From Bdellovibrionales bacterium CG10_big_fil_rev_8_21_14_0_10_45_34 (GTDB taxonomy: Bacteria; Bdellovibrionota; Bdellovibrionia; Bdellovibrionales; 1-14-0-10-45-34), in assembly GCA_002778785.1 (NCBI GenBank), contig PEZS01000011.1, positions 124,001 to 188,000 on the forward strand: a stretch of 64,000 nucleotides of DNA, in the 5' to 3' direction. The notes under the pieces were generated by a model. The model was not told the DNA's origin and searched no databases. It saw only the letters and a list, made by a program, of their open reading frames with translations. This document shows, in pieces, positions 11,115 through 20,716 of the stretch (its first letter is position 1; every line of letters starts with the position of its first letter). A program made the position numbers and the translations under genes.

Positions 11115-13337
11115 ATGGTGCAAAAACAACTAATGAAATGGTATTCAGCGAACAAGCGCCCTCTTCCTTGGAGAGAAACCCTAGAGCCCTACGCCATTTG
11201 GATCTCTGAGGTGATGTTACAACAGACAACAAGTGAGGCCGTGCGCCAGTTTTATTCTAAATTTCTTGAAAGATTTCCAACTGTTGAAAGCCTTGCACAA
11301 GCACCTCTTGAGGACGTTTATGAACTTTGGGCGGGCCTAGGCTACTACTCACGGGCTAGAAATTTACACAAAGCCGCTCAGATTCTGGCCCATAGGGGAT
11401 TTCCAAATAATTACCAAGAACTACTCGAACTACCTGGCTTTGGCCCTTACACGAGCCGAGCAGTCAGCAGCATCGCGTTCAATGAGAATGTAGGAGTTGT
11501 CGACGGCAACACCATACGAGTGCTCAGTCGATGGCATGCAAAGAAGATTAAATGGTGGACCACGCCCGGGCGAAAAGCTGTGCAAGAACTTGCTGACAGT
11601 TTTGTTTCCGGCAACGACGCACGCTCACTTAACCCTGCGCTGATGGAACTTGGAGCTTTAATATGCAGCCCCACAAAGCCCAAATGCACGCTTTGCCCTC
11701 TGGTATCTAGTTGCGCAGCCAACCAAAAGGATATGGTCGACAAGCTGCCTCTAAAAAAAGTAAAACCGACCCAAGAGCTTTGGATCTGGAAGCCAGAAAT
11801 CACTCTCTCGCCAAAAGGACTCTTTTTGACAAGAGCTCACACGACTCCGTTTCTTAAAAATCATTGGTCACTTCCAGGAAAGGCAGAGATCGTGAAAGTA
11901 GCGCCTAAGGCTTTCGCAATAAAACATACAATTACAAAACATCAAATCTACGTTGTGCCAAAAATGAAGCCCTTTCCTTTTTTAGCAAATAAATTTGGAA
12001 ATGATTCTCGAAGAAATTCAACCCGGCATGTCTCTGTAAATACTAAGTGCGCTTTGGCTAGTCTCAATACAAATACAAATACAAATACAAATACAAATGC
12101 AAATGCAAATGCAAATTCGAATGCAGACGCAGATACAAACTCATTTTCAGACTCTGCGACGCAGATCTGGGTTCCGCTAAATCAAGTTAAAAGAATAGCA
12201 CCGTCCTCTCTTATTACGAAAATACTAAAGAACTCCGGGCTTGTAGTGGCTCTTTTTGGTCTCTTAATGGGATGCCAAATCGCAAAGAAAATGGAGACTT
12301 CCAGCGCTACTGACCCCGCCCTTGATCGACTCCAGCAGGAGCAAATCTTTGGAACATTGAAAAACCACAATCTAAAACTCATACACACTTTGCCGATTGA
12401 GGTTCAAAAGATTGCGAAGAAAGATGACGACTCACTCTTCGTTTTAGCACTTTCAGATTCGATGCGGCTTGCACGGCTAAGCGGTAGCGACCCCGACGTA
12501 AAAAAACAAGAAATCTACGAATATCAAATAAAGGACTCAAAATTCTCTCAGACAAGTTTTCATTCCAGTCAAATCATTGATTTTGTCAGTCATCCGCAAG
12601 AATCAGAACTGCTCTATGTTTCAGATGCGGAAGAGCGGGTGCGCAATCTTTCTCTTAAGAAATGGCTAAAGAAGAATCAGCAGTCTACTCAAGTAGAAGC
12701 CAATTCTTGCGCGGGCGGATTTGATATTTTTAAACGAAATTTAACCTCTCCAAAGATTCAAAACCTTACAAAAAGAAATGGGCTCGAGACTTTGCCAGCA
12801 TTTACAAAGAATTTCAATTGCTGGGCTGAGTGTATGACAAGAGAAACCACTTCTTGGCGTATCGTTTGCCAAAGCAACTCCCAGAAGCCTGTTTCGTTTC
12901 AACTCTCGGGCCATCCTAAGTTTGTTTCTGGCAGTCAAAATGAAGATGCTCTTGTTTGGGTTCTCGCCGAAAAACCGAACACCCTCTTCATGGCTCGATC
13001 GGCCAGTTTTTCGGCTTCTGCAAAAAAATCCAAAGAAAGTGCCATTATCGAATTGGAACTCGACGGAGTCATTCGAGACATTGGCTCTACAGCAGCTGGA
13101 GAATTGCTTGTCACCTATCAAGATGGCGAAGACTACACGCTCGTATCGTTCAGCAAAGGTTGTGCAAAAAAGGCTCGAGCCTTCGGACTCCCTTCAAAAC
13201 TGTGGACTTACCGTTCGTTTCAAGACGAGTTTATTTTAGCACTCCCGCAAAACGGCAAAACAGACATATACCTCTTGTCCAAACCTACCTTTGGAGAGTG
13301 CGACAAATCTCTCTACGAGCAAGCCTTCGGTCTATAA
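11115..13337 (+). CDS. mutY: MutY adenine DNA glycosylase fused in frame to a lipoprotein-like sequence
   Basis: Residues 1 to about 375 are MutY, which removes adenine opposite 8-oxoguanine. Seen are the catalytic Glu in ISEVMLQQT, the helix-hairpin-helix LPGFGPYTSRAV, the Asp in VVDGNTIRVLSR, the 4Fe-4S cysteines C-x6-C-x2-C-x5-C (CSPTKPKCTLCPLVSSC) and a NUDIX-like C-terminal region ending WVPLNQVKRIAPSSLITKIL. ATG 11115 is preferred to TTG 11079. The frame does not stop there: it runs on through LKNSGLVVALFGLLMGC, a textbook lipoprotein signal and lipobox, into about 355 further residues of unknown fold. No ATG/GTG/TTG with a usable ribosome site precedes that signal. A hexanucleotide repeat inserts Asn-Thr/Asn-Ala pairs in the C-terminal domain. 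Confidence 0.85.
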   Translation: MVQKQLMKWYSANKRPLPWRETLEPYAIWISEVMLQQTTSEAVRQFYSKFLERFPTVESLAQAPLEDVYELWAGLGYYSRARNLHKAAQILAHRGFPNNYQELLELPGFGPYTSRAVSSIAFNENVGVVDGNTIRVLSRWHAKKIKWWTTPGRKAVQELADSFVSGNDARSLNPALMELGALICSPTKPKCTLCPLVSSCAANQKDMVDKLPLKKVKPTQELWIWKPEITLSPKGLFLTRAHTTPFLKNHWSLPGKAEIVKVAPKAFAIKHTITKHQIYVVPKMKPFPFLANKFGNDSRRNSTRHVSVNTKCALASLNTNTNTNTNTNANANANSNADADTNSFSDSATQIWVPLNQVKRIAPSSLITKILKNSGLVVALFGLLMGCQIAKKMETSSATDPALDRLQQEQIFGTLKNHNLKLIHTLPIEVQKIAKKDDDSLFVLALSDSMRLARLSGSDPDVKKQEIYEYQIKDSKFSQTSFHSSQIIDFVSHPQESELLYVSDAEERVRNLSLKKWLKKNQQSTQVEANSCAGGFDIFKRNLTSPKIQNLTKRNGLETLPAFTKNFNCWAECMTRETTSWRIVCQSNSQKPVSFQLSGHPKFVSGSQNEDALVWVLAEKPNTLFMARSASFSASAKKSKESAIIELELDGVIRDIGSTAAGELLVTYQDGEDYTLVSFSKGCAKKARAFGLPSKLWTYRSFQDEFILALPQNGKTDIYLLSKPTFGECDKSLYEQAFGL
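12067..12114 (+). repeat. Hexanucleotide microsatellite inside mutY
   Basis: Five ATACAA units followed by three ATGCAA units, decaying over the next 24 bases. In frame it encodes alternating Asn-Thr and Asn-Ala. Six-base units keep the reading frame, so slippage changes linker length rather than switching the gene off. Confidence 0.95.
12213..13337 (+). other. Lipoprotein moiety of the mutY fusion frame
   Basis: Starting around TKILKNSG the sequence has a positively charged n-region, a hydrophobic core and the lipobox LMGC (Cys codon at 12273). It is followed by a secreted-type domain with scattered Cys and recurring short strand-like segments such as SLFVLALSDSMRLARL and GELLVTYQDGEDYTLV, suggestive of beta-rich repeats. 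A separate protein would need a non-standard start such as ATT 12213; the only ATG (12267) leaves no signal peptide. What is translated in the cell is unknown. Confidence 0.55.
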
Positions 13338-13465: not shown

Positions 13466-14176
13466 ATGTCAGAACACCTTCCCCTCGTAGTTTTAGGGTG
13501 CCTCACGCTTTCAGTAGCACTAGTTGCCTCTACGAAAGGCACAGTGCGCGCCGAACTACAGAAGACCTCGCAAAAAGTCTCCGCGAAGATCGCAGAAAAC
13601 CCTGAGTTACTGAGAATTGATATTGACGAAAATGTTTATTTTTCAGGCGCGGCAACCATGAACTGGAGAGCGCTATCACGAGACTCCGAGAAGTTAACCC
13701 TGCGTAAAACATCAGCCTCCGAGACACTCGACAATGTTAAAGAGCCTTCCGCGGAGAGGTTTGATGAAACTTTACAAAACGACAACAAAATCAAAGTCAG
13801 CGCTGATGAAATTTTGGAAAACGACAGCATCAAAGTGAATGATGGTGAGACTTCTTTAGGACTTTTAACACTGGAGTGGAAGCAGACGGGTAATGGAATA
13901 TCTATCGATAAGTTTGTTTCGTCGTGGATGAAGGATTACCCCAAATTTGGTTATCAAATCGAAGAGTCCAAAGTGTTTGGCCTTCTCAATGAAAAAGCTC
14001 ACTTTCTAGAACTCACCAAAAAGAACTCCGAAACTCGTCTTAGCCAATACGTGCTTAAAAAAAACTCACACCGTTTTGTTTTTACCTGCGTCTCCCAAAA
14101 AAGCCAGTGGGCGACCCTTCGTAAAGAATGCCACCGACTTATTATGTCGCTAAAATCGACTGAAACCCCGCACTAG
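13466..14176 (+). CDS. Secreted or periplasmic protein of unknown function
   Basis: 236 residues with an N-terminal hydrophobic stretch (about residues 5-22, LPLVVLGCLTLSVALVAS) that reads as a signal peptide or anchor, although positive charge before it is poor. The middle is acidic, with short repeated phrases (ENDSIKVND, DETLQNDNKIKV). The C-terminal half, with TLEWKQTGNG, VLKKNSHRFVFTCVSQ and a closing CHRLIMSLK helix, has the general look of small periplasmic proteins with one alpha/beta domain. It starts about 130 bp after the mutY fusion on the same strand and may share its transcript. Function not recognised. Confidence 0.65.
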   Translation: MSEHLPLVVLGCLTLSVALVASTKGTVRAELQKTSQKVSAKIAENPELLRIDIDENVYFSGAATMNWRALSRDSEKLTLRKTSASETLDNVKEPSAERFDETLQNDNKIKVSADEILENDSIKVNDGETSLGLLTLEWKQTGNGISIDKFVSSWMKDYPKFGYQIEESKVFGLLNEKAHFLELTKKNSETRLSQYVLKKNSHRFVFTCVSQKSQWATLRKECHRLIMSLKSTETPH

Positions 14177-19780: not shown

Positions 19781-20716
19781 TTAAAAATAAGATTGAATTG
19801 TGTGAGCCACTCCCACGCCATCTAGCTTGTGAAAGCGATAGAGATCTTCTGGAGTGCCACTTTCGCCATAAACATCATTCACACCGATACGAACTACTTT
19901 GCAAGCAAGCCCCAGCCCGCTTGTGACTTCACTCACGGCTGCGCCTAGTCCGCCAATCACACTATGGTCCTCGGCTGTGAAAATTGTTTTAAACTGCGAT
20001 GCGTACTTTTCGATCGAGGCTCGATCAATAGGCTTTATTGATGAAACATTCACGACGCCAACATTTAATCCTTTAGTCGACAATTCTTTTGAAGCTTCAA
20101 GAGCCGAACCCACAAGTGCGCCCGTTGCGAACACTACCGTGTCGCTACCTTCTTTAATTGTATGCGCCTTACCGGGCTCGAAGCGATAGTTTTCACTATG
20201 AACTCGGGGAAGATCTTGCCGAGACAACCTAACATAAGCCGGGCCTTGATGCCGGCACAGGTACTCCATCATTGCATGAGTCTCAATGTCGTCCGCAGGC
20301 TGTAGCACCAACATACCTGGCAGTACGCGCATACATGCTAAATCCTCGAGCGCCATCTGACTGCAGCCATCTTCGCCAATACCCACACCAGCATGCGTAC
20401 CAATGAGTCTCACATTGGCTTGTGCATAGCCAACGGTGACTCGAATTGTGTCAAAACGCCCAGACAAAAAAGCTCCAAACGAACACAAAAATGGCACCTT
20501 GCCCGAGAAGGACATACCAGCTGCCACACCAATCATGTTGGCCTCTTGAATGCCCATCTGAAAGAAACGATTCGGATATTTTTTCGAAAAGCCCTCTGAC
20601 TTTGTACTTTTTGAGAGGTCCGCATCGAGAACAACCACTTGCGGGTAATCCGCACCGAGCTGCACAAGAGCTTCACCAAAACTAGCACGCGTTGCTTTTT
20701 TCTGAACTGCTGTCAT
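19781..20716 (-). CDS. Transketolase, C-terminal half subunit
   Basis: Second half of a two-subunit transketolase, carrying the pyrimidine-binding and C-terminal domains. It runs from LDADLSKSTKSEGF through the conserved QMGIQEANMIGVAAGMSFSG, which holds the Glu that activates thiamine diphosphate, and THAGVGIGEDG, to the C-terminal domain GALVGSALEASKEL and EDHSVIGGLGAAVSEV. 311 residues. The N-terminal half ends 5 bp upstream in the same direction, an arrangement known from archaea and many bacteria. Role: pentose phosphate interconversion of ketose and aldose phosphates. Confidence 0.9.
   Translation of the reverse strand: MTAVQKKATRASFGEALVQLGADYPQVVVLDADLSKSTKSEGFSKKYPNRFFQMGIQEANMIGVAAGMSFSGKVPFLCSFGAFLSGRFDTIRVTVGYAQANVRLIGTHAGVGIGEDGCSQMALEDLACMRVLPGMLVLQPADDIETHAMMEYLCRHQGPAYVRLSRQDLPRVHSENYRFEPGKAHTIKEGSDTVVFATGALVGSALEASKELSTKGLNVGVVNVSSIKPIDRASIEKYASQFKTIFTAEDHSVIGGLGAAVSEVTSGLGLACKVVRIGVNDVYGESGTPEDLYRFHKLDGVGVAHTIQSYF

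Follow-up and report, generated by a model that had tools for sequence, protein, structure and literature searches.

Known systems with two proteins in one chain

Polyproteins that are split by a signal peptidase are already known. The fbcH gene of Bradyrhizobium encodes a fused cytochrome b/c1 precursor; cleavage at an internal signal turns the product of this single bacterial gene into two proteins. The parts of fbcH belong to one membrane complex and are separated by signal peptidase I. At the core-E1 junction of hepatitis C virus (HCV), the end of a cytosolic protein is formed by the signal peptide of the next, exported protein in the chain (PMC5402940). Signal peptidase separates both proteins, and the first one is left anchored by the signal peptide (PMC5402940). 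The ATGA-type translationally coupled gene pairs have also been well described (PMC6728339).

The locus reported here lies in a window of 64,000 nucleotides (the whole stretch of DNA that was analysed) from a Bdellovibrionales genome. Like HCV core-E1, it joins a cytosolic protein to an exported one via the signal peptide of the latter. However, HCV is a eukaryotic virus that uses type I signal peptidase, whereas the mutY fusion is found on a bacterial chromosome and carries a lipoprotein signal, where cleavage by LspA would be expected. In contrast to the fbcH product, the mutY fusion pairs a DNA-repair enzyme with a lipoprotein unrelated to it, and the cleavage site would be of type II. If it is made and cut as proposed below, the fusion differs from the known polyproteins in its halves and in its lipoprotein signal. 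The mutY and lipoprotein genes of the relatives are coupled via ATGA or GTGA overlaps, as in the described coupled pairs; termination-reinitiation could not operate at the fused junction of the window, where neither the mutY stop nor the lipoprotein start is left. No relevant report on a fusion of MutY to a lipoprotein, or on a mutY operon of Bdellovibrio, was found in the open-access literature searched.

The fused open frame and its MutY half

A single open frame on the + strand extends from ATG 11115 to the stop at 13337 (stop codon 13335-13337), encodes 740 aa, and has zero internal stops. The first-pass annotation, which had placed MutY and a lipoprotein in one frame without a stop, was therefore right about this stretch. 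There is an in-frame alternative start at TTG 11079; ATG 11115 is the likely start and TTG 11079 is less likely, because the alignments with homologues begin at about residue 3 of the protein counted from the ATG. The order within the frame is a complete MutY, then the lipoprotein signal (GLVVALFGLLMG, followed by C387), and then a predicted TolB-like propeller of 354 residues. Two proteins are joined in one open frame via a signal peptide, which is the arrangement of a polyprotein. The sequence comparisons give good support to the reading of this frame as a true in-frame fusion of two genes.

The MutY half (11115-12233, + strand) includes the HhH-GPD catalytic domain, the Fe-S cluster and the Nudix-like C-terminal domain, and the complete MutY spans residues 1 to about 373. 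The best NCBIfam model is TIGR01084 (mutY), which matches residues 15-266 of the TTG-start frame at 1e-77 with a score of 261 bits, slightly below the curated cut-off of 286.5. The PF00730 match is above its cut-off, and solved MutY structures in the PDB were matched at about 1e-53. The alignment showed that the catalytic residues E32 (codon 11208) and D130 (codon 11502) and the four Fe-S cysteines C184, C191, C194 and C200 (11664-11714) are invariant among the fused homologues. The earlier claim of a complete MutY with its active site and FeS cluster agrees with these matches. Judged by the profile and by the catalytic and Fe-S residues, this half is a predicted A/G-specific adenine glycosylase of the MutY type. 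The AlphaFold model of the whole fusion also contains the predicted strands of the Nudix-like domain. The fused copy is the sole MutY found in the genome; a second HhH-GPD match is shorter and more distant.

A hexanucleotide tandem array of the AATACA type (12066-12125, + strand) lies in a loop of the Nudix-like domain. It has 8.5 copies of AATACA at 97% matches with degenerate copies after them, and codes for Asn-Thr and Asn-Ala, that is (NT)n(NA)n. The loop containing this stretch (290-346) is of low confidence in the model. A change of copy number would alter the length of MutY and not the frame, since the period is six, and phase variation by this array was rejected for the same reason.

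The lipoprotein half and its signal

The last conserved helix of MutY, PSSLITKILKN (12201-12233, + strand; helix 365-373 in the model), also provides the charged n-region of the lipoprotein signal, a double use that had been foreseen from the sequence alone. The hydrophobic core and lipobox follow at 12240-12275 (LVVALFGLLMG, then the Cys), with the LMG-C lipobox at 12264-12275 and the Cys387 codon at 12273-12275. The charged n-region (TKILKNSG), the hydrophobic core and the lipobox Cys of a lipoprotein signal are all there; however, this signal is located about 375 residues into the open frame rather than at the N-terminus of the chain. The lipobox Cys does not vary among the fused homologues or across 32 members of the family. 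Two more cysteines of the mature part, C297 and C343, are nearly invariant in the family, as might be expected of an exported protein with a disulfide.

The predicted mature lipoprotein (12273-13337 with the stop, + strand) has 354 aa and no Pfam or NCBIfam match. An HMM of the mutY-adjacent lipoproteins from relatives, built without the window copy, nevertheless finds this half at 2.4e-19 in a single-sequence search. The window copy is strongly diverged and shares only 10-18% identity with the family members. The profile of 32 family members matches TolB chains, and PD40 repeats were seen in the relatives; Pfam found none in the window copy. For the C-terminal half, AlphaFold modelling of the whole fusion gave a poor result (mean pLDDT 58.7), whereas modelling of this half alone with a deeper alignment gave a propeller (mean pLDDT 73.4). 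The best Foldseek matches of the propeller model in the PDB are TolB, with TM-scores of only about 0.5. From the HMM, the profile and the predicted fold together, the second half is placed in a conserved mutY-linked family of TolB-like lipoproteins. The predicted propeller, and the PD40 repeats seen in family members, resemble TolB of the Tol-Pal system. However, TolB is a soluble periplasmic protein encoded in the tol-pal operon, whereas the fused half has a lipobox and a mutY neighbourhood; no tol operon was seen at the mutY-lipoprotein locus.

Separate pairs in the relatives

The window genome (G000; 3.06 Mb, 16 contigs, 100% complete) is the only member of its family in the comparison. The MutY query matched in 137 of the 141 genomes of the order, and the mutY junction was read in about 90 of them. 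Most genomes of the order have a homologous TolB-like lipoprotein directly 3' of mutY, and the 73 loci with this arrangement form one similarity cluster. The separate state is the commonest, with 59 of the 70 analysed pairs. Among the 54 separate pairs with a plausible lipoprotein start, this start lies no later than the end of the mutY stop codon in 26, and a -1 stop/start overlap (ATGA, GTGA or TTGA) is seen in 14. Most genomes of the largest genus (g4) have an ATGA junction.

Other overlaps were also observed among the relatives. In G116 (L048), the lipoprotein gene begins out of frame, about 165 nt ahead of the mutY stop and with a strong Shine-Dalgarno pairing of -9.2 kcal/mol, so that the two genes overlap deeply. 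In G098 (L011), G040 (L009), G068 (L044), G070 (L049) and G069 (L059), the lipoprotein is in the -1 frame and its signal overlaps the end of mutY. These five junctions have no usable canonical start 12-32 codons before the Cys and contain AAA-rich codons. It is possible that their translation begins 35-44 codons upstream and yields a long signal, or that the ribosome shifts into the -1 frame at the AAA codons of the last helix.

Recurrence of the fusion in the order

The two genes form one open frame in 11 of the 141 genomes, belonging to four families: the window genome and 10 others (G066, G042, G028, G027, G085, G094, G130, G131, G132 and G133), where the contig of G027 starts inside mutY. 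On the MutY tree, the ten full-length fused genomes require 7 changes of state, at least 3 of which are forced by the starred branches, though this tree does not distinguish gains from losses and has many weak forks. Separate pairs are also found next to fused ones, such as G065 beside G066 and G129 among the g60 genomes. Read from these junctions and the tree, the same merger appears to have occurred repeatedly within the order. No open fusion outside the order was among the matches listed for the fused-protein profile in 369 genomes of the phylum, 228 of them outside the order. In G270, which belongs to the same class, both halves are in one frame with a stop between them.

Relatives with plainly separate genes and standard starts had been considered as evidence against the fusion. 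Such pairs do exist (59 of 70, many with ATGA), but they do not refute it; they reveal how it arose, given that the two genes are merged repeatedly, in 11 genomes from four families. If the frame is expressed as read, the fused lineages would be natural replicates, up to about seven in number, and might show how a coupled stop/start overlap turns into a gene fusion.

Start signals at the junction

Within 72 codons upstream of the Cys, the only canonical starts in the lipoprotein frame are GTG 12246 and ATG 12267. Both were rejected as starts, since they fall within the hydrophobic core, only 9 and 2 codons ahead of the Cys. No ATG, GTG or TTG at this junction could start a normal signal peptide, and the first-pass annotation was correct in finding no conventional internal start. 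It had also regarded ATT 12213 as non-canonical, and Shine-Dalgarno pairing is absent there (+0.4 kcal/mol), as it is at ATA 12222 (+1.2 kcal/mol). Several other genes of the window have a strong Shine-Dalgarno (-8 to -10). The mutY ATG 11115 itself has none, which means that a missing Shine-Dalgarno does not exclude initiation in this genome.

The 11 fused junctions were compared with the 59 separate ones for canonical starts that would yield a signal of 12-32 residues. Any canonical start in this range was found in 7 of 11 fused versus 54 of 59 separate junctions (p=0.029), an ATG in 1 of 11 versus 43 of 59 (p=1e-4), and an ATG with Shine-Dalgarno pairing of -3 kcal/mol or lower in 0 of 11 versus 30 of 59 (p=0.0016); these tests treat the genomes as independent, which they are not fully. 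Four fused genomes (the window, G066, G085 and G094) have no canonical start in the range, and G094 has no ATG, GTG or TTG in the stretch from 2 to 82 codons before its Cys. All fused genomes retain the hydrophobic segment and the lipobox Cys. A signal that is kept while its start is lost across the fused genomes is the prediction of a single-chain product. The comparison adds two points to the earlier annotation: the lipoprotein belongs, by its homology, to a conserved mutY-linked TolB-like family, and the loss of the start codon is, on the junctions compared, common to other fused genomes.

Proposed origin and processing

The recurrence of the same merger in the order suggests one chain that is cut at the lipoprotein's own signal peptide. 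The reading that we consider probable is that recurrent loss of the stop codon merged a coupled gene pair, and that the resulting chain is split by Lgt and LspA at the internal signal into MutY and the lipoprotein. The starting point would have been the arrangement common in the order, a tight pair of mutY and a TolB-like lipoprotein gene, often coupled by ATGA or GTGA. The mutY stop might have been lost via a small indel or a substitution in several lineages, including that of the window. The ribosome would then make a single MutY-lipoprotein chain, in which MutY would fold in the cytoplasm and the internal hydrophobic segment would be taken by Sec as a signal anchor. The propeller would be moved to the periplasm, Lgt would lipidate Cys387, and LspA would cut in front of it. 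The mature lipoprotein would be freed, and MutY would stay in the inner membrane through a short hydrophobic tail, which might be trimmed off afterwards.

The genome has two matches each of Lgt and LspA. The LspA matches are at C11:53723-54151 and 19868-20272, and those of Lgt at C11:54236-55051 and C4:59906-60607. One LspA is directly beside one Lgt on C11; the second LspA is inside a longer 339-aa frame.

The chances seem about even that the order has repeatedly evolved a chromosomal polyprotein, in which MutY serves as an extension of the n-region and LspA as the splitting protease, and MutY may be retained at the membrane until the chain is cut. If the frame is expressed as read, a lipoprotein signal peptide would function with a folded DNA-repair enzyme in front of it, at a distance of several hundred residues from the N-terminus, and LspA could split a fusion of two unrelated genes. 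Annotation of such a frame as an adenine glycosylase alone would hide the lipoprotein.

Alternative explanations

The main rival to the split single chain is a pair of nested in-frame genes, in which internal initiation in the last helix of MutY is an additional or the main source of the lipoprotein, and a read-through MutY with a long tail is tethered or degraded. The candidate sites would be ATT 12213 or ATA 12222 in the window, and TTG, GTG or ATG in some relatives. Initiation at ATT 12213 would give a textbook signal of 20 residues; G094 and G133 have an ATT at the corresponding place, 7 of the 11 fused genomes offer some canonical start 12-32 codons ahead of the Cys, and the mutY ATG likewise has no Shine-Dalgarno. 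However, ATT is very rare as a start codon, and neither ATT 12213 nor ATA 12222 has a Shine-Dalgarno. The four fused genomes without a canonical start in range, and the depletion of start signals in the fused relative to the separate genomes, also argue against nested genes, which we regard as unlikely, though a serious competitor. Weak internal initiation would be most plausible in the fused genomes with a TTG, GTG or ATG close to the helix.

The fusion might also be made and left unsplit, with an uncleaved signal anchor holding MutY at the inner membrane, or one half might have lost its function, the fusion being tolerated as a relic. The sequence gives no proof of cleavage, and the window lipoprotein is strongly diverged (no Pfam match, 10-18% identity to the family). 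On the other side, the lipobox Cys is kept in every fused genome, the catalytic residues of MutY are kept, Lgt and LspA are present, and the fused copy is the only MutY found in the genome. Since both sets of functional residues are kept, an unsplit MutY or the decay of one half appears improbable.

A sequencing or assembly error that took away the mutY stop is suggested only by the nearby tandem repeat (12066-12125). Chance or a single error of this kind is practically ruled out because the same merged arrangement is found in 10 other genomes. In addition, the assembly has 16 contigs and is 100% complete, the reading register holds on either side of the junction, where the conserved MutY end leads straight into the signal, and the repeat period of six keeps the frame.

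The third gene of the locus

The fused frame is followed by a gene for a predicted exported protein of 236 aa (13466-14176, + strand), which is a neighbour of mutY or of the lipoprotein gene in many relatives. A third conserved exported protein after the lipoprotein, like that of the window, was seen in L055, L062, L072, L074, L078 and L092. In loci without the lipoprotein, a related exported protein directly adjoins mutY.
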